26,975 nt of DNA, taken from a virus. Both the position numbers and the translations under genes were made by a program. Below the pieces are notes generated by a model. It searched no databases. It saw only the letters and a list, made by a program, of their open reading frames with translations, and was not told the origin of the DNA. The stretch lies in the IMG/VR virus record IMGVR_UViG_3300028364_000125, positions 1 through 26,975 of that record; one strand, given 5' to 3'. Each line of letters opens with the position of its first letter. Position 1 is the stretch's first letter. Below are positions 3,144 to 24,482 of the stretch, piece by piece.

Positions 3144-4310
3144 TTACAGTATAGAGAGTTCATCGTCTACGGTCTTTGTCCGTTCGTACTCTTTCTCACA
3201 CTCATCGTAGATGGGACAATCATCGCACTCATTGAATCCATCGATGTCCTTCCCGAAGGTTCCTCCTGCGGGACAAGCTACCTCTTCCTTTTCCATACTC
3301 TTCTCTTCCCGTCGTCGCCGTCGGGCTTCCCGGCTATCCTCTTCTTCCAGAGGTTTACCTAAGACAATCCGACTGGAAGGCTCTTCCTCGGGCACTTTCT
3401 CCTCAGGAACAGGCCGTTGTGGACGACGAGGCTCCCGTTGAGTAGCGACTTCGGGTTCTGGTGCGCTCTCTGTGTCTTCTTCCTCGTCTCCACCATTCGT
3501 AATGAAATACGTCCCATCCAGCATGGATTCCAATTCTTCATAAGTATACTTCTTAATATACTTGTCCAGTGCAGGAACAGATTCCAGAATCTCTGGGTCG
3601 ATTGCTTCCTTACGAGAAACAAACTCCATCTCCTGAATAGGGCCAATAAGGAAATTCCCTCGATTGTCTTTCAAGGAAGAAGGTTCAATATAGAACTCTA
3701 AGTCATGTCCCCCCGGACCTGGATGAGCAAGAATAATGGAACTCTCTCCCCTATGGGATCGAGACATTTTCTTATTCAGGGTTTCTCCGAAGTAGTAGGA
3801 AGCGTATTCCATTACATATATCTTCCCATCTGCATGGTTCAAGATGAAGAAGAAATCTCGCTCAGTATCATTGAGACTCTTGACCTCGTTCTGAGTCTCA
3901 GTGCTCATGGCATTGTAGTTCCCGTCGTGCCGATTGAACAAGTCTTGCTTCTTCTCACAGAAAGGACACGCCTCACCATAGTTCTTCTGATTACACAGAA
4001 CTTTGTAGTTTCCTGTAGGCGTAGATACTTTGTGAAAAGTCAGATTCAACTTCCAATCTACAGGAGGAGAATCCTTGAATACTCCCTTCAAGTGTCTGTA
4101 CTTCGGGTGGCTACTTGTGACAGGGAAAGGGAGGAAGCTGAACATATAAGGATGATCATCCCCCAGACTCGGTGCCAACTTGATCTTCTCAATTCCTGTT
4201 TCTGCCTTCAGTCGGGGATAGTCGAGTGTCAACAACCATCGCTTATTTACTGCCGGAGCGGCTTTCGCTCCCTGAAATTCTTCACTTCCTAGTGCATCGT
4301 AATTTACCAT
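3144..4310 (-). CDS. Single-stranded DNA-binding protein, T4 gp32-like
   Basis: 388 aa. The N-terminal half carries an OB-fold-sized domain with a cysteine cluster LCNQKNYGEACPFCEKK (C106, C115, C118), like the zinc-binding insert of phage gp32-type SSBs. An acidic and arginine-rich linker (about 275-335) follows. The C-terminus has a second cluster, CPAGGTFGKD...CDDCPIYDEC, a pattern I associate with large phage gp32-like proteins, and an acidic tail suited to recruiting recombination and replication partners. It would coat ssDNA and cooperate with the recombinase and the UvsY-like protein that flank it. AAGGAG lies six bases before the ATG. Function is assigned from motif layout and gene order. 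Confidence 0.8.
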   Translation of the reverse strand: MVNYDALGSEEFQGAKAAPAVNKRWLLTLDYPRLKAETGIEKIKLAPSLGDDHPYMFSFLPFPVTSSHPKYRHLKGVFKDSPPVDWKLNLTFHKVSTPTGNYKVLCNQKNYGEACPFCEKKQDLFNRHDGNYNAMSTETQNEVKSLNDTERDFFFILNHADGKIYVMEYASYYFGETLNKKMSRSHRGESSIILAHPGPGGHDLEFYIEPSSLKDNRGNFLIGPIQEMEFVSRKEAIDPEILESVPALDKYIKKYTYEELESMLDGTYFITNGGDEEEDTESAPEPEVATQREPRRPQRPVPEEKVPEEEPSSRIVLGKPLEEEDSREARRRRREEKSMEKEEVACPAGGTFGKDIDGFNECDDCPIYDECEKEYERTKTVDDELSIL

Positions 4311-5455: not shown

Positions 5456-5494
5456 ACACTACCTCCTCTTCTTTTAATTTACACTTTTTCTTTT

Positions 5495-5567
5495 TAGCGT
5501 GAACTGGATTTGAACCAGTAACCTGATGCTCCCAAAGCACCCGCGCTACCATTTGCGCCATCACGCT
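5495..5567 (-). tRNA. tRNA-Pro (anticodon UGG)
   Basis: All arms fold on the minus strand: acceptor AGCGTGA/TCACGCT (7 bp), D stem GCGC/GCGC, anticodon stem GGTGC/GCATC (one G-U pair) with loop TTTGGGA giving anticodon TGG, variable loop AGGTT, and T arm ACTGG/CCAGT around TTCAAAT. The discriminator is A and no CCA is encoded. It would read CCA and, by wobble, other proline codons. It lies between the purine permease and small genes, downstream of a consensus promoter inside the permease gene. Confidence 0.93.
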
Positions 5568-5571
5568 ATTA

Positions 5572-5645: not shown

Positions 5646-6935
5646 TTAAATTACAAGCCAAACTGCGAAGACAACCGCCAAGATAATCACCGTCTTGGAC
5701 AGCTCCTTCCTACGATTCGTCATAGCCTTCAGCACTACATACGAAACTACTCCGAAGAGTATACCATTGCTAATCGAATATGTCAAGGGCATCATGATAA
5801 TTGTCAGGAAAGCTGGGATTGCCTCGGTGTAATCCGTAAGATCAATCTCCGTAATTCCCGTCACCATAAAGAGACCAACCACAACAAGAGCCGAAGCAGT
5901 CGCCGCCGCAGGAACCATCAAAAATAGAGGTGACAGGAAAATCGACACCAAGAATAACACACCAACGGTCAGGGATGTCAGCCCAGTTTTTCCTCCCTCA
6001 GCAATCCCTGAAGAACTTTCCACATAACTCGTTACCGTGCTCGTACCGAGAACAGCACCTACGGTCGTCCCAATGCTGTCTGCAAGAAGAGCTTGTTTCG
6101 CTTTTGGAATTGAGCCATCCTCATTTATCAGCCCCCCTTTGGTAGTAACTCCAATCAGGGTCCCCGCCGTATCAAAAATATCCACAAACAAGAATGTGGC
6201 AACGACCACAATCATATCTGCACTTAAGATGCGAGAGAAATCAAACCGGGCGAAGGTTGGCATAATCGACGGAGGCATCCAAGAAACATTCGTAGGAAAC
6301 ACTGTGTTCCCCGTGAACAGTCCGAGGATAGCTGTAATCATAATGCCCAAAAGAAGGGCACCCTTCATCTTCATAGCGAGGAGAGTCCCTGTGATGAAGA
6401 TACCAGCGAAAGCCAACAGAACACCGGAGCTTGTCATATCCCCCATTGAAATGATAGTGGCAGGATTTGATACAACAATCCCTGCGTTCTGCAAACCAAT
6501 GAAGGCAATAAACAGCCCAATCCCCACAGAAATCGCTCGCTTAATGTTGAGAGGAATAGCATTGATGATCCTTTCCCGTACATCGAAAATAGACAATACA
6601 AGAAAGATGACTCCTTCAATGAATACAGCAGCCAGCGCCATCTCCCATGAAAAACCCATACCAATTACCACGGTGTAGGCGAAGAAAGCGTTGAGTCCCA
6701 TTCCGGGAGCCAAAGCAATCGGAAGATTGGCTACCAAAGCCATTACAAATGTGGCTATAGCAGAAGAGATAGCAGTAGCCATAAAAACAGCTCCCATATC
6801 CATTCCTGCATCTCCCAAAATGAGAGGGTTTACGATCAAAATGTAGGCCATTGTCAAGAAGGTTGTGGCTCCTGCCAACAACTCTGTCTTGATACTTGAC
6901 CCATGCTCTTTCAGTTGAAATACTTTTTCTATCAT
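5646..6935 (-). CDS. AzgA/PbuG-type purine (adenine/guanine/hypoxanthine) permease, NCS2 superfamily
   Basis: About 429 aa, the usual length of AzgA/PbuG/PbuO transporters (roughly 430-450). It starts MIEKVFQLKEHGSSIKTELLAG, followed by TTFLTMAYILIVNPLIL, the characteristic first-helix region, then GMGLNAFFAYTVV, FVDIFDTAGTLIGV and SIGTTVGAVLGTSTVTSYVESSSGIAEGGKTGLTS, all hallmark segments. About twelve to fourteen hydrophobic helices run throughout, with no break. It would import purine bases by proton symport across the host inner membrane. The second of two tandem ATGs (6935) is chosen because AAAGGAG lies five bases before it; 6938 is the alternative. Such transporters are ordinary bacterial genes and rarely seen in phage. 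Its place amid replication genes suggests a captured metabolic gene. Specificity for a particular purine is not known. Confidence 0.93.
   Translation of the reverse strand: MIEKVFQLKEHGSSIKTELLAGATTFLTMAYILIVNPLILGDAGMDMGAVFMATAISSAIATFVMALVANLPIALAPGMGLNAFFAYTVVIGMGFSWEMALAAVFIEGVIFLVLSIFDVRERIINAIPLNIKRAISVGIGLFIAFIGLQNAGIVVSNPATIISMGDMTSSGVLLAFAGIFITGTLLAMKMKGALLLGIMITAILGLFTGNTVFPTNVSWMPPSIMPTFARFDFSRILSADMIVVVATFLFVDIFDTAGTLIGVTTKGGLINEDGSIPKAKQALLADSIGTTVGAVLGTSTVTSYVESSSGIAEGGKTGLTSLTVGVLFLVSIFLSPLFLMVPAAATASALVVVGLFMVTGITEIDLTDYTEAIPAFLTIIMMPLTYSISNGILFGVVSYVVLKAMTNRRKELSKTVIILAVVFAVWLVI
5758..5786 (-). promoter_or_regulatory. Consensus sigma70-type promoter inside permease 3' end, upstream of tRNA-Pro
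   Basis: TTGACA (5786-5781), 17-bp spacer, TATACT (5763-5758). Transcription would begin near 5750 and run through the tRNA and the small-gene/SSB/RecA module. Confidence 0.55.
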
Positions 6936-6937
6936 CA

Positions 6938-7174
6938 TTACTCCTTTGTACTCTCTGCTACGGCGGTGAATTCTTCTCCATTCTTTCCCGCTTCCCAAGC
7001 CCGTTTCATCAATGGTACGATGCTGAAGGCGAAACCAAGATCTCGGCTTAGCGTACAGTCTTCTGGTTCAGGCATGCCTACTGCTATCTCCACTTCACCG
7101 TCCACTTCAATTTCATAGCCATCTCGATCTTCCCCATAATACTCTCCCTCGTTATACCGCGTTACTACTTTCAT
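6938..7174 (-). CDS. Hypothetical acidic protein (78 aa)
   Basis: Not recognised. The first half is a run of alternating charged and aromatic residues (MKVVTRYNEGEYYGEDRDGYEIEV...), perhaps beta strands; the second half is helical. GGAGG lies four bases before the ATG. The start overlaps the 72-aa gene (ATGA) and the stop shares a base with the first ATG of the permease. It therefore sits in the same transcript as the transporter, but no functional link can be seen. Confidence 0.6.
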   Translation of the reverse strand: MKVVTRYNEGEYYGEDRDGYEIEVDGEVEIAVGMPEPEDCTLSRDLGFAFSIVPLMKRAWEAGKNGEEFTAVAESTKE

Positions 7175-9310: not shown

Positions 9311-10225
9311 TTAATTCCTATTCTCGTTTCTGAGGCAAGCCTCATAGCAAACCTTGACTAAACCTGGCATTCCTGAACCATACTGATAACCAGATGCGGC
9401 TACCAACAGATTGAACGCAGTGTTCTTCTTCCCACTATTCAACAATACCTTGCTCATGTACGCCCGAAGAAAAACAATAGCAGAATCCGGAGTTGCCTTC
9501 ATCTTACTAAGGATTGACGCAACTACAGTCCATTCAGCGTTCTTGGACAGAGCCCGTCCTAACTCAATCAGCTCGACCTCATCTTCAGAATCGTACCCTT
9601 CTATAATACTACAGGCTTCCTCTTCTGTCAAGCTCCTAATCTGGTGAAGCATGATTAAACTGTCTCGGAGAACCCGGCCACTTGTCCGAGCAATCTTACT
9701 CAGAGACTTCCGAGAAACCGTCATCTTCTCCTCACCCGCAATCAGAGAAAGATAGTCTACTAATTCCTGAAAGGTGGGTTTTTGAAGAGAGTACACTGCC
9801 GCCCGAGAAGCTACAGTCTTCTTGATCTTCTGTGGATCTGTTGTGCAAAAAACGACGTAAGCATGTGGAGGAGTATCTTCCAATACATCCTTTAACAGGA
9901 TGTCTTGTGCTTCAGAAGTTAAGCGTTGACACTCATCGATGATGTAGAGTTTGGGTTTCCCAAACGACTTCATGTGAATACGGGAAGACAGATCTCTCGC
10001 AAACTCCACCCCATTCGAGTTCGCGGCGTTAATCTCCTCTACTATCTCAATATCAAGCATTTTCCCGATGATACGAGCAATAGTGGTTTTTCCTGTACCG
10101 CCCTCTCCAACAAGCATGAAGAAATGCGTTTCTCCTTTCTCCAACAGAGAACTCAACGATTTTACATTTGCGGCATTTCCAATCACTTGACTAAGTTTCG
10201 ATGGTCTGTATTTTAGATGAAGCAT
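9311..10225 (-). CDS. Clamp loader ATPase subunit (DnaX/RFC/gp44-like)
   Basis: 304 aa from ATG 10225 (AAGGAG six bases upstream). It begins MLHLKYRPSKLSQVIGN, the classic clamp-loader opening (KYRP...G), followed by Walker A GEGGTGKTT near residues 41-49, Walker B IIDECQRL with the DECH-like DECQ near 100, and a sensor 1 region VVFCTTDPQKI; the usual SRC arginine-finger motif appears as SRAAVYSLQ. The C-terminal 120 residues form the helical collar. It would load the sliding clamp encoded at 14955-15983. No second loader subunit is recognisable in the window, so the complex may be homomeric or use an unrecognised partner. Confidence 0.92.
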   Translation of the reverse strand: MLHLKYRPSKLSQVIGNAANVKSLSSLLEKGETHFFMLVGEGGTGKTTIARIIGKMLDIEIVEEINAANSNGVEFARDLSSRIHMKSFGKPKLYIIDECQRLTSEAQDILLKDVLEDTPPHAYVVFCTTDPQKIKKTVASRAAVYSLQKPTFQELVDYLSLIAGEEKMTVSRKSLSKIARTSGRVLRDSLIMLHQIRSLTEEEACSIIEGYDSEDEVELIELGRALSKNAEWTVVASILSKMKATPDSAIVFLRAYMSKVLLNSGKKNTAFNLLVAASGYQYGSGMPGLVKVCYEACLRNENRN

Positions 10226-10238
10226 TCTGTCTCCTTTT

Positions 10239-11126
10239 TCAAATAACTCCAAGATCTGCTTTCAAATGAAGAGCGTCATCCTCGGATAAATCCCCAGCAT
10301 CTCCGGTGTCTAACACGATATTCTCTACATGGAGACCCATTGATGATAGTGTCCGGGCTTTCTTCACAGCTATAGATTGCGCTGTCTTTTCTCCATCATA
10401 CAGAAAAAACACTCTCCTATACATATTGGAGAGTATGTTCAGTTGGCTATTACTGAGAAATGTACCGAATGAGGCCACGGTATTGTCCCCCATCTTCATT
10501 GCGTCAAAAACACCTTCAACGAGGATGACGCTTTCTCCCTGTGCGTTATCTATATTATACAATGTATCCTTGTGAAATACAACCTCTTTCTCAGGATAAC
10601 AAGTCAAATACTTTGGCATTGCATCGACATAAGATCTCCCTTGATACGATACAGGTTTTCCTTTCAAGAAAACGGGAATAATGATCCGATATCCAAACTC
10701 TTTCGCCATTCCAGTCACCCGTAAATCATATTTCCGAATGGTATACCCAGGGTCAAACCCTCGCTTTTCCAAATACTCCAAATGGGAAGACTTGAAATCT
10801 TTACTTCCCGGAACAATACAAGTTTTGGCTTGCTGGCGGGGAATGGAAATTTCTGTATTTGCGGAATGCGAATACACCACACTGTACTTTTCTCGAATCA
10901 CTTTCTGTGATTCCCCCGTCATTGCTTTTATGTAATCATACCAAGTATGAGATCCACACTTCCAGCAATAGGGCCGTTTCCTCCCCCGAACATCTAACCC
11001 AAGGTGGTTGAAAGAATCGTCACAGAATGGGCAAGTAACTCCTACCCTCCCTTGCGATACATTCTCAGATCCCGGAGGCCACCAAGGGATATTGTAATCA
11101 TCCAGAAACCGAATGACATCGAACAA
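10239..11126 (-). CDS. DNA primase, DnaG-type (zinc finger plus TOPRIM)
   Basis: About 295 aa. An N-terminal zinc ribbon is visible (TCPFCDD ... YCWKCGS), then a TOPRIM core: VILVEGVFDAM (the glutamate motif), RVFFLYDGEKTA and DTGDAGDLSED (acidic motifs). It would synthesise RNA primers for the DnaB-type helicase and polymerase encoded nearby. There is no helicase domain, as expected with a separate DnaB. I prefer the TTG at 11126, which has GAGGAAG about six bases upstream and begins just after the Zn-finger gene's stop. A TTG at 11189 would overlap that gene by 62 bases with no clear ribosome site. Confidence 0.9.
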   Translation of the reverse strand: MFDVIRFLDDYNIPWWPPGSENVSQGRVGVTCPFCDDSFNHLGLDVRGRKRPYCWKCGSHTWYDYIKAMTGESQKVIREKYSVVYSHSANTEISIPRQQAKTCIVPGSKDFKSSHLEYLEKRGFDPGYTIRKYDLRVTGMAKEFGYRIIIPVFLKGKPVSYQGRSYVDAMPKYLTCYPEKEVVFHKDTLYNIDNAQGESVILVEGVFDAMKMGDNTVASFGTFLSNSQLNILSNMYRRVFFLYDGEKTAQSIAVKKARTLSSMGLHVENIVLDTGDAGDLSEDDALHLKADLGVI

Positions 11127-11127
11127 T

Positions 11128-11337
11128 TCAATCTTCCTCGCTTGAAAGGAGACCGAAGATTTTGTCGTAACAGTCTTCACAAATATCAACGGTCTTGTGC
11201 AATGCTGACGGGATTGAACTTGTTTCTAAATCCGCCGAATTGTGTTCAATGGTCTCCAAGGAGACCTCAATCCGGGCTACATCCGCAGCGAATTCTGACT
11301 CCACTTTCTTACAAACATCACAAATCAACATTTTCAT
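11128..11337 (-). CDS. Small zinc-finger-like protein (69 aa)
   Basis: Two CxxC pairs frame the protein: ICDVCKK at residues 5-11 and ICEDCYDK near 52-59, the pattern of a small treble-clef or zinc-ribbon knuckle. Between them is an acidic, probably beta-rich stretch. It may bind DNA, RNA or a protein partner in the replisome, but nothing more specific is seen. AAAGGAG lies five bases before the ATG, and the gene sits directly upstream of the primase. Confidence 0.7.
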   Translation of the reverse strand: MKMLICDVCKKVESEFAADVARIEVSLETIEHNSADLETSSIPSALHKTVDICEDCYDKIFGLLSSEED

Positions 11338-11579: not shown

Positions 11580-11608
11580 AGCATACAAGATCTCAACTAC
11601 AGTGTCAA
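11580..11608 (-). promoter_or_regulatory. Sigma70-type promoter for the primase/clamp-loader transcript
   Basis: TTGACA (11608-11603), 17-bp spacer, TATGCT (11585-11580), then GGAGG and the 70-aa gene start. It begins in the last codons of the polymerase gene and extends into the gap. Confidence 0.65.
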
Positions 11609-14600
11609 GCCACTATTTCAAACTCTTCTGATGCCTCAGAAACAGCCCAGTTGTCTCGGTAAATTTCTCCGCTCATTCTCAGGGGCATGGTAATCCATTG
11701 ATGCCGCTCCTTCACTTCAACAATAAAACATTCGCGTACCAAGGCTTTGATAATTTCAATCTCTTCCTCTGGTACTTCCAATACCACGCTGTCATGTATT
11801 TCAGCGATGAACTTACTCTTCAGTCCTTGCTTCTCCATCTTCTCTGTCATAGAAATAATTCCCTCCAAAAGCACATGAAACCCACTCCCCTGAATAGGGA
11901 AGTTTCCTACTTGGTTGGCGGTCATTAACGAGGTGTACATGAATCCAGTGTACGAGATAACCCGTCCTGTGTTCACATACGTTTCCCATGTATCCTCCCG
12001 CCACCGACTCAGTTCCTTGAATCGCTCATTCCAGTAGATACCATAGATCTCCCGAATATGTTTGTCCCATGCTTCGTAGTCCTTCACCCCCACTCTTACC
12101 ATCTCATCTTTGAGACGGTTTGTCATGTGTCCGTGCCACAGATTGTATGACAGCATCCTCGCACTTGAACCATATTGGAGCGCAAAGTTTGCAGTCTTTC
12201 CAACTGAGCGCATGTTTTTGAATAAGGTCGGATCTACGTCTTCTGCCCTTACCCGGAAGATATCCTGAGCCATGTCCGCGTGCATATCGGTATTCTCATC
12301 CAGAAGATACTTCATCATGGTGGGGTCTTTGTGGTAGTTACACCCCATGAACCCCTCAAGTGAAATATAGTCAATGTCCATATAGACACAACCTTTTCTT
12401 GGTTTGAAAACGGATCGAATACGGGACATCATCTCTTCATCTCGCATAGGTGTGTTCTGGAGGTTGGGGTTTTGGCCGCTTGAGCGGTAACTTGTAACCA
12501 AATTCAGAGAGTAACCTGGGTGGATAACATTATCGACTGTCTCTCTCCGTATCCCCTCTAAGAAAGTATCTCGGGTCTTGACCGCCGCTTTGTAATCAGC
12601 AACATTCCGAGCGATCTCGGTCTCATACACTTCGTAGAACCCCCGCAATACTTCCGAGGTAGTACTGGGTTGTCCGTTTTTCGTCCTTTCAATGACAGGA
12701 TACTCAAGCCGATCATAAAAGAGTTCTATCAAATCCTTTGAGCTATTTGGATTGAACGTATCCCACTTCTTAATCAATGGGTCTTGCATGATTTTCTCTT
12801 CCAAGCCCATGATTTGTTTTTCCAACTCAAGAGAATTCTTTTGGAGACGGAACGCATCTACCTCAAAGCCATTGATAGACATCTTCGCTAAAGCAATCTG
12901 ACCTTGGTGGAATTTATCATATCCCTGCTTGAGGATATCGCTGCTCTCAATCTCCTTGATCTGTTTCTCAGCTATGTGAAATGTATGCCATGCATCTTCA
13001 CCGTTGTATTTTAACAAACGAGGCAAGCTCGCGTTACGGATATTGTTTATTGCATTTGCATTTTTCTTGTCAGAAGCAGTTAGGAATCGGTCGATCTCAG
13101 TGTCATACCCCGCTACTCCATTTTGAGCGAACGCCTGAAACTTCAAACTTGTAATCCCCGCACGATTGTCGAGAATGTGCGCTGCGATCATCCCATCCCA
13201 TTTCCAGTTATCCACCCACACTCCGAGGAAATGTTTGATCCACGTGATCTCGTACTGAATGTTCCACCCGTATTTGTCTGCATCGTTCAAGAGAAGTCTC
13301 TTGAGTACCCGTAAGCTACGTTCCTCTCTTGGATGACGAAATGCCCATATCTGTTCCCCATCAGAAAAGCCCCATGTGTATATCTCGTGTCCCTCTGCAT
13401 AGGGTTTCAGTCCGGTCGTCTCAATATCGAACGCATACTTTGGCTTATCATTCAGATACTTCAATGCGTCTCGGATCTCTTCTTCTGAATCCAACAATTG
13501 AACAGAAGGTACTTTCATTTCTGTGTATTTGAATTTCAGCCCAGCCACGATCTGCTTTAGAATGAAAAAATCCAAGACACGGAAACTATCCGTCTGTCGT
13601 AAATAATCATCTTTCCACAGTTCTCGTTTGAAACGGGCATGACTCTTGTATTTAAGGATATTCTTCTTGCGGCGCTCCAATTCTTTCAGAGCATCCATAG
13701 GACTGAAAACAGGAATAACAGCGGCTCGAAGATTCTGGTCCGGAATCAGTGATCCAGGAAATTTGGTATACTGAGCAAAACTAAAACGTCCACTATTAAC
13801 CCCGTGGTAGAGAGTCTTCATAGCCACCGAGCCCATTACAAATATCTTCTCGGGTTTCAAACGAGTGATATTCGCCATAAGCCGGGAGTGACACCCAGCA
13901 ATAGATTGAGGCGATACAGGTGTATCTTTCCCCTCAAATTGTGGCTGAAAACATTGCACCGCGTGAGTCACCCATACATCTTCCTCCGAAAGCCCTACAC
14001 GATCCAAAATGGAGAAGAAGTAGTTATACATTGAGCCATGAAAAGCATCACCTGTATGATCCTCCGCACGAGTAACAGAGTCAAAGATAATGAGGATCTT
14101 TCTCCTGCCCTTGCCCCTCACAGTGAACTTTGGAGACTTGCATAGTTCGTATGCTTTACAAGTCTCACACCCACTAAGTCTGTTTGGACGGGATAATGTA
14201 GGTAAAGGTGCTTTTTCTATTTCCATGAATCCGGGCATTCTATTCTCCTCTTTGGTCTTTTTTTTTACAACATCATCATCCCGTAAGGAATTGATAATCA
14301 TAAGGCTGATAGAGCCCACAAACAGGAACCATACAATTACCTGTACTCTTCGTTTGCTTGTCCACGCTTCCGTAATAGCTATAAAAACTGTATCGGCACT
14401 TCTTCCGCTTTGTGCCTGACGCATCTCCTGAGTAACTTCCCCTCTGTTTATCTGTTGCAGTCTGTTTGCAAGGTTCTCATTAAGAACACGAAGATCCTCT
14501 TCGATGAGAGCTTGTTCTCGCTGTATGGCTTGCACCGTCTCAGGACGTACGGATATCTCAAACTCTGCTCGCTTCGCAATAAGACTATCCTGTAAGGCTT

Positions 14601-14958
14601 CCCGCTGAATGTACAGCTCTTGTAGAACTACATCATTGTCTACAGTAACTACTATATCATAGTTTTCAACTTGTGCCAAGGTACTGGATAGAAGAAAGGA
14701 CCAACCAAAGAACAATGTGACTGCTTCAAGCATGACATAATTTATCAGGTATCGAGGCTTCTTCGTACCCACAAATTTAGAGAAAGCTCTGGGAGCAAAC
14801 ATGACGATAGCTATCCCCGACATCACAAATCCAACCGCTTCTAACGGACCGGGACTCAATCTCAGCATAGACACAACCATAACCCCCGTCTGTACAACGA
14901 GGGCCATTCCCAAACCGAAGGAGTCTAAGAATTGATTGAATCTATCACGAAAACTCAT
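11605..14958 (-). CDS. Membrane domain + UDG-like domain + family A DNA polymerase, one open frame
   Basis: 1117 aa. Residues 15-33, 40-57, 73-92 and 206-224 are hydrophobic helices, with a coiled coil at about 105-170. Residues 260-420 resemble family 4-type uracil-DNA glycosylase with putative Fe-S cysteines C264, C267, C336 and C356. Residues 505-665 are the 3'-5' exonuclease (DIETTGL at 511; Exo II has E, NIQYE; YNGED at 651). Residues 680-1117 are the polymerase: motif A DIDYISLEG near 861, motif B RSVGKTANFALQYG at 917-930, motif C HDS at 1055. UDG-PolA fusions are known in phages; a membrane anchor is not usual. An internal ATG at 14238 (M241) with AGAGGAG upstream would give an 877-aa soluble enzyme, and it is the better ribosome site. 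The first ATG overlaps the clamp stop (ATGA). Three products are possible. Confidence 0.9.
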   Translation of the reverse strand: MSFRDRFNQFLDSFGLGMALVVQTGVMVVSMLRLSPGPLEAVGFVMSGIAIVMFAPRAFSKFVGTKKPRYLINYVMLEAVTLFFGWSFLLSSTLAQVENYDIVVTVDNDVVLQELYIQREALQDSLIAKRAEFEISVRPETVQAIQREQALIEEDLRVLNENLANRLQQINRGEVTQEMRQAQSGRSADTVFIAITEAWTSKRRVQVIVWFLFVGSISLMIINSLRDDDVVKKKTKEENRMPGFMEIEKAPLPTLSRPNRLSGCETCKAYELCKSPKFTVRGKGRRKILIIFDSVTRAEDHTGDAFHGSMYNYFFSILDRVGLSEEDVWVTHAVQCFQPQFEGKDTPVSPQSIAGCHSRLMANITRLKPEKIFVMGSVAMKTLYHGVNSGRFSFAQYTKFPGSLIPDQNLRAAVIPVFSPMDALKELERRKKNILKYKSHARFKRELWKDDYLRQTDSFRVLDFFILKQIVAGLKFKYTEMKVPSVQLLDSEEEIRDALKYLNDKPKYAFDIETTGLKPYAEGHEIYTWGFSDGEQIWAFRHPREERSLRVLKRLLLNDADKYGWNIQYEITWIKHFLGVWVDNWKWDGMIAAHILDNRAGITSLKFQAFAQNGVAGYDTEIDRFLTASDKKNANAINNIRNASLPRLLKYNGEDAWHTFHIAEKQIKEIESSDILKQGYDKFHQGQIALAKMSINGFEVDAFRLQKNSLELEKQIMGLEEKIMQDPLIKKWDTFNPNSSKDLIELFYDRLEYPVIERTKNGQPSTTSEVLRGFYEVYETEIARNVADYKAAVKTRDTFLEGIRRETVDNVIHPGYSLNLVTSYRSSGQNPNLQNTPMRDEEMMSRIRSVFKPRKGCVYMDIDYISLEGFMGCNYHKDPTMMKYLLDENTDMHADMAQDIFRVRAEDVDPTLFKNMRSVGKTANFALQYGSSARMLSYNLWHGHMTNRLKDEMVRVGVKDYEAWDKHIREIYGIYWNERFKELSRWREDTWETYVNTGRVISYTGFMYTSLMTANQVGNFPIQGSGFHVLLEGIISMTEKMEKQGLKSKFIAEIHDSVVLEVPEEEIEIIKALVRECFIVEVKERHQWITMPLRMSGEIYRDNWAVSEASEEFEIVA
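14236..14268 (-). promoter_or_regulatory. A_AAA_AAG slippery site, -1 frame TAG, and strong internal start of UDG-polymerase
   Basis: On the minus strand GTA is followed by A9 then G; in frame this contains A_AAA_AAG (14263-14257), the same heptamer used in E. coli dnaX frameshifting. After a -1 shift the frame reads GAC CAA AGA GGA GAA TAG, stopping at 14242-14240. One base later is ATG (14238-14236), with AGAGGAG six bases before it. A shift would give a 239-aa membrane protein. Confidence 0.6.
14240..14958 (-). other. Possible separate membrane protein (239 aa by -1 frameshift)
   Basis: This is the alternative product of the region. The first 234 codons of the polymerase frame, followed by five codons in the -1 frame (DQRGE), would end at TAG 14242-14240. 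The protein would have three N-terminal membrane helices, a coiled coil of about 65 residues and a fourth helix near 206-224. If the A9 run is a sequencing error for A10, this is simply a separate gene. No family is recognised. Confidence 0.45.
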
Positions 14959-15983
14959 ACTTCAACCCATAGATACAAACATTCGTTTTCACTTTCACTT
15001 TCACAGACGAGAAAGTCATTGGTCCCGAAACGTACTTCTCCTTCCATCTCTACGAGACTGATAAGGTGATCTGGATGTATTCGGAACGCGAGGTTCGAGC
15101 TTGAATAAACTCCCTTGAGTTTATGTGTATACTTGGACTTGACCCCTTCCGTGCTTATCACCGCTTCTCCGTCTTCGATACTCACATGTACGGTAACGTC
15201 CTTTTTCTTAAACTCAATGTCGAATGCTTTGGAAGCCAATAGTGCCTGTTTCCACTCAGAAGGATTTTCGATTCTAAAAGATTCTGTAGCGGTAGATGTA
15301 TTTGGAATGTAACGGCTAACTGCTGACACATTCCCAATGTTCCGGACCATGCTCAGAACTGAATCTCCAATACGGAAAGACACAGTGGAGTCCTTAATCA
15401 ATATCAAATCTGGTTCCCCGACACTCCCGAGTACCTTCTCGATCCCAAGACTAAATGAAGCATCCGGACAATCAACAAAGCGGGTAGCGATTTTGTACCC
15501 GTCGGAAGACATCGCCATATTATCTTGTACATAGATGTTGCTGTACTCGATGTTCATGGGAAATGTGGATTTAGAGCAGAAGTCTATAGCATCCCGGAAA
15601 TATGAAGGAAGAGAAGTGTAGTTTTCTATAGGTGCCGTCTCTACATAGAAGGACTGCATATAGTCAGAAATAGACTTGAAAGGGTAATTGAAATCTGCTT
15701 GGTTCCCTTGACATTCTATGGTCACACTGTCTATACCGATCAGTATAGAGACGGTATCTTCGTGCAACCGAGATAGCATTGCCTTTACAGGGACTACTGG
15801 CAGGGCCATCTCCTTCGGGGCATCGAAGGGCTGTAGGAAGAAGAACAGTCCGTTAAAAGCATACACATAATTCCCGTCGAAGAAGATCCAATCTTCGTAT
15901 GGGACATTCACTTTCTTTGAGACTATTGGTTTCACTCTCTCGATGAAGCTCAGAAGTTCTTTTCTATCTATCACATTTTCCAT
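14955..15983 (-). CDS. DNA polymerase sliding clamp, DnaN-like
   Basis: 342 aa, near the usual 360-380 aa of bacterial beta clamps. The sequence has the three-repeat beta-rich character of DnaN: a first domain with VYAFNGLFFFLQPFDAP and LPVVPVKAMLSRLHEDTVSILIG, a central domain with IYVQDNMAMSSDGYKIATRFV (the SSDGYKIA motif being a good DnaN marker) and a third domain ending in FLVCESESENECLYLWVEV. It would encircle DNA as a dimer and tether the polymerase encoded next, whose start it overlaps by ATGA. GAGGAG lies seven bases before the ATG. The clamp loader is encoded further along the same strand. Confidence 0.85.
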   Translation of the reverse strand: MENVIDRKELLSFIERVKPIVSKKVNVPYEDWIFFDGNYVYAFNGLFFFLQPFDAPKEMALPVVPVKAMLSRLHEDTVSILIGIDSVTIECQGNQADFNYPFKSISDYMQSFYVETAPIENYTSLPSYFRDAIDFCSKSTFPMNIEYSNIYVQDNMAMSSDGYKIATRFVDCPDASFSLGIEKVLGSVGEPDLILIKDSTVSFRIGDSVLSMVRNIGNVSAVSRYIPNTSTATESFRIENPSEWKQALLASKAFDIEFKKKDVTVHVSIEDGEAVISTEGVKSKYTHKLKGVYSSSNLAFRIHPDHLISLVEMEGEVRFGTNDFLVCESESENECLYLWVEV

Positions 15984-20361: not shown

Positions 20362-21303
20362 TCATCCTCCAATCATGCCGATAGAATCCAGATAGCGTTG
20401 AGTAATAGCTACATTTGTGTGGTTTAGTCGTTTTGATACTACATAAATGTCGGAAGTCTGGCTATAGACCTTGACTGCAAAATAGTGGCGAAAACTGTGA
20501 GCATGATACTTTTGCTCAATGACTCCCTCTGTAAACAGTTCTTCGCACACTTTGGTAACGTGATGCTGAATCGTCCTCTCGTTCATATCCTTAAAGGGAA
20601 GAGCAACACTCGCGTCAAAACCCATATCAGACATCACCTCTTTATACCCTTCAGGCATAATCCCCTGGATGGTTCTGCCTTTCGAGTAGGTGGTATAGAT
20701 GTCATCTTTTATAGACAACCCCTTCAGAGCACCAACACGAAACCCTCCGTAGGCCATGAGCCACACAGCCATGTATACTTTTTTATACGCAGTGGAATGA
20801 GGAGAGGATATTTTATCGCTTAAACGAGACAGGACCCTATAAAGATCCTGTTCATTCGGGACAGCTAATGACTTGACTCGTTTAGATTTAACGGTTTTCA
20901 CTCCTCGAAAAGGATTGGTAGGGATGACTTCCCAACGCACCATTGTGGTAAAAAAAGAGGAAATAGCAGTCAAGTGTGTACGTACACTGTTGGGAGCGTA
21001 CACCTTGGAAAGCTCACTGACGTAAGTATCCGCATCGAACGGAGTCACATCGATTGGATGAATATGCTTCTGAAAGAACAACTTTATTGCCGCCTCATAA
21101 CTCTCTCGGGTCTTGGCGCAGAACGAATCAAGAAATTGAGACAGATAGGAATCAATATCAACCGACTCTTTCTTCTGAATCTTTGTCACCAGAGATTTGA
21201 TTCTATCATACTCAATATGGGCCTTAATGTGGTCCATCTGGGCTTCTGTAAGCTGAGTCCCGTCAGGTAATGTATGTACGTTGTACGTAAGGTCATTCAT
21301 CAT
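20362..21303 (-). CDS. Tyrosine recombinase (integrase/XerC-D-like)
   Basis: 313 aa. The N-terminal SAM-like core-binding domain (about 50-145: YLSQFLDSFCAKTRESYEAAIK... HLTAISSFFTTMVRWEVIPTNPF) precedes the catalytic domain with the full R-HxxR-H-Y set: YGGFRVGALKGL, YHAHSFRHYFAVKV, LNHTNVAITQRYLDS. It would recombine DNA through a covalent 3'-phosphotyrosine. No excisionase or repressor is recognised beside it and no attachment site can be picked out, so it might serve integration, multimer resolution or genome-end processing. It is the first gene after a strong promoter with a palindromic spacer. AAGGGG lies before tandem ATGs (21303, 21300). Confidence 0.92.
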   Translation of the reverse strand: MMNDLTYNVHTLPDGTQLTEAQMDHIKAHIEYDRIKSLVTKIQKKESVDIDSYLSQFLDSFCAKTRESYEAAIKLFFQKHIHPIDVTPFDADTYVSELSKVYAPNSVRTHLTAISSFFTTMVRWEVIPTNPFRGVKTVKSKRVKSLAVPNEQDLYRVLSRLSDKISSPHSTAYKKVYMAVWLMAYGGFRVGALKGLSIKDDIYTTYSKGRTIQGIMPEGYKEVMSDMGFDASVALPFKDMNERTIQHHVTKVCEELFTEGVIEQKYHAHSFRHYFAVKVYSQTSDIYVVSKRLNHTNVAITQRYLDSIGMIGG

Positions 21304-21319: not shown

Positions 21320-21348
21320 AATATACACGGAATTACCCGTGTTGTCAA
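21320..21348 (-). promoter_or_regulatory. Strong promoter with palindromic operator in the spacer, upstream of the recombinase
   Basis: TTGACA (21348-21343), 17-bp spacer, TATATT (21325-21320). The spacer is almost wholly an inverted repeat: ACACGG (21325-21330) and CCGTGT (21337-21342) around six bases. Such a site between -35 and -10 is the typical place for a repressor, or a MerR-type activator. The -35 overlaps the stop codon of the initiator gene. Confidence 0.7.
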
Positions 21349-23645
21349 GAGAAGAGAGATTCCATATCCCACCAAGGATTTACCTTCTTTGTCGTTACCA
21401 GATTCATCTCCTCGAATGAGTACCATAATGGTTTCCCCCCATTATCGCGGGCAACATCTTCAGCTGAATATCTTACCGAACATCTCTGTTGAAGAAGGGT
21501 TCTCGCTGTTTCTTTATCCGGATTCAAGATCACGCCTTCACGCTCCTTACCATACGCTAAAAAGTTCTGAAACATCTTCTTGCTCGGGTCAAAATGCCCC
21601 GGCTGAAGATCCTTAAACCCAAACGTGTGAATGTACTCGGTAAAAATACGCACGAAATTCTCAAAAGACCCCATCAATTCAATCCATGCCGGTTCCTTGT
21701 CTGTATGTTTATACAACATATATGTATTTTTATACACGGCTTCGTAGGTATAAAGGAGTCTCGCAGTGATCTTTTTAATACGAACATCCCAATTTGAACG
21801 AGGGGCTGTACTGTCAGATAACACAGATTTTAGCTGATTTTCTATAGAACTATAAGTATTTTTCACACGTTCTTCATAGACCTCGTAGTTAATTACCGAA
21901 GGCACTTCGTTGCCTCTGTGGAGTACTTCCCAGAACCACGAGCGAGGCTCAAACACCCTGTCTTGGTTGTATCTTGTGTGGATAGTATAACATCCCAAGA
22001 ACTCTAACAAGGACAACTTGAGTTGCGATTTATCGGACACGCCTTTCCCCGGCTCAAAATATTCCCGATAGACTTTGAATATCTCAGCAAACCCATGAAT
22101 GGGAATGGACGCATTCAACCAATCATCATTCAGTGAAACCTTATTCCAAGTTGCAATGGACGGATTGGTTTTGTAAAACTCCCCGTTTCCGATCAACACC
22201 AGTCTCTCCAAAATCTGCTTGACCGTCTTGGATACTACTCCCGAATTATCGAACGTATGGTGAGTTAAGCCCTTGTTCTCCAAAACTGGAATTTTGGGTA
22301 TAGGGGGCATAGCGTTCCACATTTCCACAACAGAGAGGTATTTTGCCTCTTCCGGACTGACATGGACGCCCTTCAGAGGCTTCCTAAGCGCCTTTCGAGG
22401 CTTAGGTGATAGATGGGTACCAAATGAGGGGTAAACGCCCTGTGGCGGCTCTGTGGGCGGCTCACGCGGAATAATCTCTTCATCCTCATCCTGTGAAATT
22501 GATCTTTCTGAGTTTTCAAGAATATTGTATTCCGAATTCACCCCAATTTCTTCTTGGGATGCAGTCGGAAACTGGTTTCCTTTTTCAGGGTGATAACTAT
22601 CTTTCATAGGCAGGGATGGATTTAATCTTCCTGCCTCACTCACACTGAAAAGGGCATCAAGTTCAGGTGGAGGCCCCACAGGGGCATCTTCCTGAACGGC
22701 TTGCCCAGATTGGGTGGATGCTTCTTCCTCGTCAGAGGAAGGAGTATTCACTCCCAATCTTCTGTGGGTAGAATCTTTCAAATCATCCCCCGTCAGTGGG
22801 AGGTCGTGAAAATTCGTCCTTATCAACTTTAGTTGATAATCTTCTTCTTCAGATTTATTGTTCTTGTCTATTATTCTATTGTATTCTTCTATGTCTGCGT
22901 TACAACGCAGATGGGTCTGCGTTACAACGCAGATGGGTCTGCTCTGTAGTGCAGATGGGTCTGCGTTACAACGCAGATGGGGGGGTACCATATTCCCTTC
23001 ATTTTGTTGGTTTTCCGGGGAGTCCAAGAAGTTTATATTGATAAGACCTTGCATGAAGAATGTGGATTCTTCGGCGAGAGAAAGCACTTCGGGACGTATC
23101 ATTTGAAAGAAATGGAACCACCGAATTTCACTATCATTAGGTGGTTCCTGTGCATTCTGTACTATTAGTGTACTTGAGAGAAATAGCTGAACTGCTCGAT
23201 CTAAACGCTTCCTATCCAAGATCCAATACTTGACTCGCATATTGGAGAGACTTCTAATCTCTGTTCTGAGAGCACCGATTTCTTTCAGGAACTCCTCAGC
23301 AGAGTCTATGTCAGAACGCGATACTTCTAATTCATCCTGCCAAGCATTGAGTGACTTATAGAATTCTCCAGCATACTTGGCGTGTTTTGCGTTCTCTATA
23401 GACCAGTTATACCAGTACACAATCTTACTGATTACTGCTGCAATAGGATAGGGCTGCCTGTTTCTTTGTTTTTCTGGCCCCATTGTGTAACAATACTTCA
23501 CCATCTTTACGAGTGCCGTGGTGTTGTACAGCCCTATATAAACAAGTTTTCCTTCTTTGTTCAGGGCTACAAAGCGCTTCTGTTTAAGTTGTTGCAAGTA
23601 GAACTTGTTCAATTTATAGTCTTCATACTCAGTCAATTTCAACAT
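21345..23645 (-). CDS. Replication initiator (lambda O-like organisation) with iterons inside the gene
   Basis: 766 aa from ATG 23645. Residues 1-180 resemble the winged-helix domain of phage replisome organisers: a WQDELEVSRSDIDSAEEFLKEIGAL stretch (recognition helix and wing) followed by VKYWILDRKRL. Residues about 220-450 form a polar, acidic, proline- and serine-rich linker, and the DNA for its first part carries four 22-bp iterons. Residues 450-766 form a second globular domain of unknown family. In lambda, O protein binds iterons within its own gene and recruits the helicase; the same layout here supports that role, but the protein is much longer than O. GGAGGAG lies six bases before the ATG, and the start overlaps the upstream gene by 17 bases. 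Confidence 0.75.
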   Translation of the reverse strand: MLKLTEYEDYKLNKFYLQQLKQKRFVALNKEGKLVYIGLYNTTALVKMVKYCYTMGPEKQRNRQPYPIAAVISKIVYWYNWSIENAKHAKYAGEFYKSLNAWQDELEVSRSDIDSAEEFLKEIGALRTEIRSLSNMRVKYWILDRKRLDRAVQLFLSSTLIVQNAQEPPNDSEIRWFHFFQMIRPEVLSLAEESTFFMQGLININFLDSPENQQNEGNMVPPHLRCNADPSALQSRPICVVTQTHLRCNADIEEYNRIIDKNNKSEEEDYQLKLIRTNFHDLPLTGDDLKDSTHRRLGVNTPSSDEEEASTQSGQAVQEDAPVGPPPELDALFSVSEAGRLNPSLPMKDSYHPEKGNQFPTASQEEIGVNSEYNILENSERSISQDEDEEIIPREPPTEPPQGVYPSFGTHLSPKPRKALRKPLKGVHVSPEEAKYLSVVEMWNAMPPIPKIPVLENKGLTHHTFDNSGVVSKTVKQILERLVLIGNGEFYKTNPSIATWNKVSLNDDWLNASIPIHGFAEIFKVYREYFEPGKGVSDKSQLKLSLLEFLGCYTIHTRYNQDRVFEPRSWFWEVLHRGNEVPSVINYEVYEERVKNTYSSIENQLKSVLSDSTAPRSNWDVRIKKITARLLYTYEAVYKNTYMLYKHTDKEPAWIELMGSFENFVRIFTEYIHTFGFKDLQPGHFDPSKKMFQNFLAYGKEREGVILNPDKETARTLLQQRCSVRYSAEDVARDNGGKPLWYSFEEMNLVTTKKVNPWWDMESLFS
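22820..22839. repeat. 20-bp palindrome in AT-rich part of putative origin
   Basis: TTATCAACT and AGTTGATAA form a perfect 9-bp inverted repeat around TT. Each arm matches the E. coli DnaA box TTATCCACA at 7 of 9 positions. It lies in the AT-rich stretch (about 22810-22893) beside the iterons. Confidence 0.55.
22894..22985. repeat. Four palindromic iterons, 22-bp period: putative origin of replication
   Basis: Units at 22894-22911, 22916-22933, 22938-22955 and 22960-22977 are each 18 bp, separated by TGGG. Units 1, 2 and 4 are identical, TCTGCGTTACAACGCAGA, with 8-bp perfect arms around AC; unit 3 is TCTGCTCTGTAGTGCAGA. A G tract follows. The 22-bp period is not a multiple of three, so the protein reading changes from unit to unit, which shows that the DNA, not the peptide, is conserved. 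This is the layout of an iteron origin. Confidence 0.8.
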
Positions 23646-23982
23646 ACAAATCTCCTCCATCAATATCTGATAACTGTTCCTGAATGGACAGTAATCCTTC
23701 CGCAACCGCTCGCTTTACTATTGCCTTTATCTCGTCTTTCGTGTAGTAATTCTTTAGCACACTATAGATTAAATTCACCGAGACATAAGCATATTTCACC
23801 TTGTCTTCGTTGTAAAAGAACTCTTCGTCGTTCGGACTGCTGTCTACTGCGTATGCAGTCAGGGCTGCATAAAGATAGGCAATGTCCTTACCGCGTTCTC
23901 GAATAGTTTTCCCTGAAATCGATATAGGCATTCCGTTTGCGAAAATCTCCGTATCGTCTGGATCATCTGGTACAAAATACAT
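23629..23982 (-). CDS. Hypothetical protein (117 aa), first gene of leftward operon
   Basis: Not recognised. 117 aa: an acidic N-terminus (YFVPDDPDDTEIF), a helical middle (GKDIAYLYAALTAYAVDSS) and a second helical block (YYTKDEIKAIVKRAVAEGLLSIQEQL). AAAGGAG lies five to six bases before the ATG. As the promoter-proximal gene directly upstream of the initiator, and overlapping it by 17 bases, it may be a regulator or partner of the initiator, but there is no motif to support that. Confidence 0.65.
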   Translation of the reverse strand: MYFVPDDPDDTEIFANGMPISISGKTIRERGKDIAYLYAALTAYAVDSSPNDEEFFYNEDKVKYAYVSVNLIYSVLKNYYTKDEIKAIVKRAVAEGLLSIQEQLSDIDGGDLYVEID

Positions 23983-24000: not shown

Positions 24001-24029
24001 AGTCTACCGCATTTATTTTGATCTGTCAA
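24001..24029 (-). promoter_or_regulatory. Leftward promoter of the divergent pair (initiator operon)
   Basis: TTGACA (24029-24024), 17-bp spacer, TAGACT (24006-24001). The 117-aa gene starts 19 bases further on. Its -35 lies 10 bp from the -35 of the rightward promoter, so one regulator could control both. Confidence 0.7.
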
Positions 24030-24039
24030 GTGATATGGG

Positions 24040-24068
24040 TTGACAGTTTCTCCAATATATACTATAAT
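24040..24068 (+). promoter_or_regulatory. Perfect-consensus rightward promoter of the divergent pair
   Basis: TTGACA (24040-24045), 17-bp spacer, TATAAT (24063-24068): an exact match to the sigma70 consensus. A CCAATATA direct repeat (about 24052-24059 and 24071-24078) flanks the -10 and may be a regulator site. Confidence 0.9.
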
Positions 24069-24089: not shown

Positions 24090-24482
24090 ATGACATTTAC
24101 TACAATACAGAAGAAACTCAATCGTCCAGCACAAGACCTCTGCCGTTTAATCCGAGGCACAAATATAGGCGGTCGTAAATCTTTCAGTTACGCCGAGATC
24201 AGGAAGAGCTTGTTTACTTTGGAAGAGTTTAATATCCTCTGCCATTACGTTGAGTGGAAGAAAGAAGATTACATTCAGTCTATCCGGGAGTTCCTTATAG
24301 CCCATCCATTCCGTTCATACCAAGATATCACAGATCATATTGCTCGTCCAGCGTCATATACATGGTGGATCTTGACGGAGATGAGTTTCTTGGAAAGTGA
24401 CTTTGCGGAGACGGATAAGGACGAACTGTTTATTGTAAACGAGGAAACGGAAAGATTATTACGTGATCGGGGAGACATTTGA
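24090..24482 (+). CDS. Hypothetical protein (130 aa), first gene of rightward operon
   Basis: 130 aa from ATG 24090, with AGGGAG four bases upstream; a longer reading from 24018 would lie over the promoter. The sequence has helix-rich parts (IRKSLFTLEEFNILCHYVEWKKEDYIQSIREFL) and a stretch like a winged helix (YQDITDHIARPASYTWWILTEMSFLESDF), so DNA binding is possible. Being the first product of a consensus promoter it could be an early regulator. No family is recognised. Confidence 0.7.
   Translation: MTFTTIQKKLNRPAQDLCRLIRGTNIGGRKSFSYAEIRKSLFTLEEFNILCHYVEWKKEDYIQSIREFLIAHPFRSYQDITDHIARPASYTWWILTEMSFLESDFAETDKDELFIVNEETERLLRDRGDI

Follow-up and report, generated by a model that had tools for sequence, protein, structure and literature searches.

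It is highly probable that the viral DNA analysed here, a stretch of 26,975 bp referred to below as the window, carries a theta-type replication origin made up of an iteron array, an A-rich tract, and a dyad, located inside the gene of the initiator that would bind it. Judged on the sequence, an in-gene origin of the lambda type is very likely. That the initiator gene contains an iteron origin like that of lambda had already been proposed in the initial annotation, and all of the tests fit this proposal, with the A-rich tract and the dyad ordered as in lambda. The components of the putative origin are the following:

22820-22839, unstranded: 20-bp palindrome, candidate boundary dyad, TTATCAACTTTAGTTGATAA, with 9-bp arms
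22840-22893, minus strand: A-rich tract, candidate DNA unwinding element, 54 bp, with 32 A on the coding strand and 74% A+T
22894-22911, minus strand: iteron 4 in gene order, beside the A-rich tract, coding strand TCTGCGTTGTAACGCAGA
22916-22933, minus strand: iteron 3 in gene order, identical in sequence to iteron 4
22938-22955, minus strand: iteron 2 in gene order, with a degenerate core, coding strand TCTGCACTACAGAGCAGA
22960-22977, minus strand: iteron 1 in gene order, identical in sequence to iterons 3 and 4

The iteron array and its adjoining elements

The iterons recur with a period of exactly 22 bp, and every spacer between them reads TGGG. Three of the copies are identical 18-bp palindromes, with 8-bp arms and a 2-nt centre, which read TCTGCGTTACAACGCAGA on the plus strand at 22894, 22916, and 22960, while the variant at 22938-22955, the third copy on that strand (TCTGCTCTGTAGTGCAGA at 22938), retains 7 of the 9 pairs and has an altered core. 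The early description of four 18-bp palindromes repeated every 22 bp, with TGGG spacers, in the linker-coding part of a winged-helix initiator was thus borne out. A dedicated scan recovered this array as the only four-copy palindromic tandem array in the window, in which no further copy of the full motif was found at up to three mismatches (0 in shuffles). When synonymous codons were permuted with the protein held fixed, the observed array score was reached in 0 of 1000 permutations. The array is covered by a single assembly; the identical contig IMGVR 3300012031_001089 ends before it. A nucleotide search of the phage collection returned no match. The exact 18-mer does occur elsewhere in IMG/VR (L005), as a single site without an array, which was judged to be due to chance.

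The A-rich tract adjoins the iterons on the gene-downstream side and is followed directly by the 20-bp palindrome, so that the order along the gene is iterons, A-rich tract, and dyad; neither of the latter two elements had been noticed in the initial annotation. The tract contains the most A-rich 50-bp windows of the coding strand across the whole window, and its instability, expressed as nearest-neighbour energy, is matched by only 24 of 26,922 positions. Against synonymous-codon shuffles, both its A-richness (76 and 21 per 1000) and the dyad (13 and 19 per 1000) are only modestly unusual.

The candidate initiator gene and its product

The elements described above lie within an open reading frame listed as 21345-23705 on the minus strand, its upper end being a TTG codon at 23705. 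Translation probably begins at the ATG at 23645, which has GGAGGA upstream and is aligned with a likely start in a diverged relative, L008. The gene and its domains are as follows:

21345-23645, minus strand: candidate initiator gene, 766 aa from the ATG at 23645, with O-like and DnaD-like PHROG matches
23211-23453, minus strand: predicted winged-helix DNA-binding domain (AlphaFold2), residues 65-145 from the ATG
21348-22370, minus strand: conserved C-terminal domain, candidate helicase or primase contact, 50% identical in L008

The N-terminal part matches PHROG families annotated as DnaD-like helicase loader (3e-6) and replication initiation protein (7e-4), with a partial and weak match to phrog_9773, replication initiation O-like (E 9.4e-6), whereas in Pfam the N-terminal domain has no match up to E = 1, and hence none to RepA_N (PF06970). 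The AlphaFold2 model of the N-terminal part, built from a two-row alignment, predicts a winged helix with helices at residues 65-84, 99-106, and 110-122 and a wing at 126-143, the pLDDT of this block being about 68-91. Its best structural matches in VIA-align, led by 4pql (Z 8.5), included 4pt7 (Z 8.1) and 5kbj (Z 7.6), all three being N-terminal domains of RepA_N plasmid initiators. This fits the account given in PMC5703833. As such Z values are near background for common folds, these matches are read as support and not as proof. Of the whole protein, only the DNA-binding domain supports assigning it to the lambda O family.

The C-terminal domain gave no credible family match, its AlphaFold model (mean pLDDT 46) is too poor for fold comparison, and PDB sequence searches produced chance matches only. 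Between the winged-helix domain and this conserved domain, the iterons encode a gap-rich linker. The stretch of protein specified by the origin would be a linker that tolerates change.

A diverged relative with the same layout

A search with the DnaB-like helicase led to L008 (IMGVR 3300001336_000030), which is 74% identical to the window in the helicase, 65% in the polymerase, and 44% in the initiator. Its homologous linker also contains four palindromes, which differ in sequence from those of the window (core TGTCTGTACAGACA) and have a period of 21, and the second iteron in gene order is a degenerate copy in L008, as it is in the window. The A-rich tract that follows these iterons is the least stable 54 bp of the 21.5 kb of L008, and beyond it lies a dyad, TTTTTCAATTAAAATTGAAAAA, the centres of iteron 4 and of the dyad being 73 bp apart in the window and 74 bp apart in L008. 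The two 20-bp dyads differ at two base pairs, both of them compensated (A-T to T-A and C-G to T-A), and they stand in different codon phases, while the iterons give rise to unrelated peptides in the two phages. Given that L008 keeps the layout under these conditions, selection appears to act on the DNA. The initial annotation had drawn the same conclusion from the 22-bp period, which breaks the reading frame; this period is indeed out of frame in the window (codon phases 3,1,2,3), but the period of L008 is in frame, so that the argument does not generalize, has been dropped as the main proof, and is weaker than the comparison with L008 itself.

At 4567-4652 of L008, the spacers between the iterons consist of G4 or C4 runs, with opposite orientations on the two sides of the array, which makes the array itself a long inverted repeat with 30-nt arms that are 100% complementary.

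Among the relatives, only L008 carries the initiator-origin module. Relatives of the initiator were sought with the complete protein, with its N-terminal and C-terminal domains separately, and with the two-member alignment, and the only matches were the same virus and L008; scans of the genome contigs for relatives found nothing further. No array was found in the distant replisome relatives (L009-L015). One of these, L010, has the same replisome (DnaB 49%) and a recombinase directly before the SF2 helicase, and its fragment of 17.4 kb contains neither an initiator gene of such size nor an array; as this fragment is incomplete, it is only tentatively that the initiator and the origin can be said to look like an exchangeable module.

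Gene neighbourhood and replisome

The initiator gene belongs to a leftward operon that is preceded by a divergent pair of promoter-like sites and whose direction is shared by the replisome genes:

24040-24068, plus strand: divergent perfect consensus promoter, TTGACA-17-TATAAT
24001-24029, minus strand: promoter-like TTGACA-17-TAGACT directed toward the initiator gene and the origin, by consensus only
23629-23982, minus strand: first gene of the leftward operon, 117 aa
15996-17489, minus strand: DnaB-like replicative helicase whose loading at the origin is presumed (phrog_19 1.6e-31)
14955-15983, minus strand: probable sliding clamp (processivity factor; phrog_947 5.6e-6)
11605-14958, minus strand: family A DNA polymerase with a UDG-like domain (Pfam DNA_pol_A 2e-51, UDG 9.5e-11)
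10239-11189, minus strand: DNA primase (phrog_47 4.6e-46)
9311-10252, minus strand: clamp loader (phrog_5846 3.3e-56)

The other leftward genes encode a tyrosine recombinase, an SF2 helicase, MazG, UvsY, a gp32-like protein, UvsX, RusA, and an exonuclease, and no P- or DnaC-type loader was recognised among the proteins scanned against Pfam and PHROG. Transcription from the leftward promoter-like site would cross the origin, as lambda requires. A GC-skew signal at 22.9 kb, which had been put forward as a check on the origin, did not materialise: the minimum falls at 24361, 1.4 kb away and near the divergent promoters, and, being confounded with gene direction, GC skew was rejected as independent evidence.

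Some further features of this region were also observed. The -35 boxes of the divergent promoters form a single dyad (CTGTCAA...TTGACAG), kept in L008 at about 3517-3550, which is a candidate operator for both operons. In the polymerase, the UDG-like domain lies in an N-terminal extension, and there are hydrophobic stretches at the start of the protein. The tyrosine recombinase is found inside the replication cluster in the window (20362-21303), L008 (6170-7123), and L010 (3290-4213), at 37-44% identity, and its retention there in three diverged phages suggests a role in replication or resolution, beyond integration alone. Finally, a tRNA-Pro(TGG) gene (5494-5568) stands beside a 450-aa xanthine/uracil permease (5646-6998; Pfam Xan_ur_permease 1e-48), which is labelled 'tail' by PHROGs. 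No homolog of this region was found in L008 or L010, even though the flanking genes are present there, and it is probably host-derived metabolic cargo.

Alternative explanations

The palindromes might instead be operators of the replication operon, bound by the initiator or by another regulator for autorepression or as a roadblock, with the origin located elsewhere. Repressors are well suited by palindromic dimer sites, and autoregulation is frequent among initiators. The promoter-like region (24001-24068), however, is about 1 kb upstream of the array and itself has no copy of the iteron, and operators would account neither for the A-rich tract, which is conserved, nor for the dyad with its fixed distance. 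This account is very unlikely. The same two elements go unaccounted for if the array serves in partition or incompatibility, or provides arm sites for the tyrosine recombinase, an explanation that is slightly more improbable still. Tandem palindromes are known at centromere-like and recombination sites, and the recombinase gene comes after that of the initiator in both the window and L008, but no ParA- or ParB-like gene was recognised among the proteins scanned, and L010 shows no array in its 17.4 kb despite having the recombinase.

The least probable of the alternatives is that the repeats work as hairpins in the mRNA or merely encode a peptide repeat. Although they are transcribed and translated, the loops of 2 nt in the window, and of none in L008, are a better fit to duplex DNA, and a repeated peptide is broken by the frame changes in the window and has no related counterpart in L008.

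Proposed mechanism

If the array, the tract, and the dyad do form a theta-type origin, dimers of the winged-helix domain would bind the iterons, whose spacing of about two helical turns would place the bound dimers on one face of the DNA. The resulting complex may wrap and bend the DNA and so open the adjacent A-rich tract, with assistance from negative supercoiling and from transcription that starts at the promoter-like site at 24029-24001, while the dyad probably either marks the limit of melting or is the target of another protein. The C-terminal domain would recruit the DnaB-like helicase of the phage, either directly or via an unrecognised loader, after which the primase, clamp, and family A polymerase encoded by the phage would take over. 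A tentative possibility is that this lineage has combined a lambda-type initiator and origin with a largely self-sufficient phage replisome (clamp, clamp loader, primase, UvsX/UvsY, family A polymerase, and DnaB-like helicase), in which the C-terminal domain would be a fused helicase or primase loader that replaces a P- or DnaC-type protein.

In many phages that encode a replisome the origin is unknown, and here a precise candidate of 158 bp (22820-22977) is available for testing together with its putative cognate protein. With a common layout and different iterons, the diverged pair separates the fixed parts of a lambda-type origin from those that co-evolve with the protein, and suggests that initiator and origin may move as one module between replisomes based on host enzymes and those based on phage enzymes.

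Comparison with known systems

The origin of lambda lies within gene O and comprises four 18-bp iterons and a 38-bp AT-rich tract (PMC3349717), which is opened by O dimers bound to the inverted repeats, with a contribution from supercoiled DNA and transcription (PMC5043065). In the lambda genome (NC_001416), the four annotated iterons of gene O are followed by the A-rich tract and then by the dyad, an order and orientation identical to those of the window, where palindromic iterons within the gene adjoin an asymmetric A-rich tract (54 bp, compared with about 40 bp as typical of a lambda-type origin) with a dyad beyond it. In both genomes, the part of the initiator gene that encodes the linker carries four palindromic iterons of 18 bp. 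Besides lambda, other lambdoid phages count among the nearest known counterparts. The iteron sequences differ, on the other hand, and the spacing ranges over 20-24 in lambda and is a constant 22 bp in the window. The better dyad symmetry and much larger initiator claimed at the outset were both upheld, given that the dyads of the window are more perfect and that its initiator has 766 aa, compared with the 299 aa of O. Lambda also relies on P and on host DnaB and polymerase, whereas the window encodes its own helicase and polymerase, with no P homolog recognised. The further suggestion that the origin is an independent variant did not hold up as well: the N-terminal domain matches the same O-like and DnaD-like phage families, so that shared ancestry appears at least as likely.

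The principle of an origin within the initiator gene is not new, as it is known in lambda, SPP1, and pSK41, and as in-gene arrays occur in staphylococcal and Vibrio phages. For the lambda layout combined with an initiator this large and a mostly phage-encoded replisome, no description was found in the open-access literature, which does not prove that none exists.

The RepA_N initiator of pSK41 has a winged-helix N-terminus, four Rep boxes in the centre of rep, a dispensable linker encoded by the origin, and a C-terminal domain that contacts primase (PMC5703833). The window protein is similar in its predicted N-terminal fold (4pql, 4pt7, and 5kbj being among the top matches), and its gene likewise contains four repeats, but the pSK41 protein has 319 aa and serves a plasmid that uses the host replisome, and the window protein has no RepA_N match in Pfam. 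In SPP1, oriL lies in gene 38, with direct repeats and an AT-rich unwinding element in the gene of the origin-binding protein (PMC6316719). Both SPP1 and the window therefore have a phage-encoded DnaB-type helicase and an origin, in the window a candidate one, inside the gene of the origin-binding protein, the differences being that SPP1 has a separate loader, gp39, uses the polymerase, clamp, and primase of the host, and possesses a second origin, oriR. The O-like and DnaD-like initiators of staphylococcal and Vibrio temperate phages match the winged-helix domain of the window weakly in sequence and carry 23-bp out-of-frame arrays within the gene, but have only about 260-306 aa and are followed by DnaC-like or P-like loaders. 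What is unusual in the window is the large initiator, with its conserved C-terminal domain that has no credible family match, within an otherwise phage-encoded replisome.
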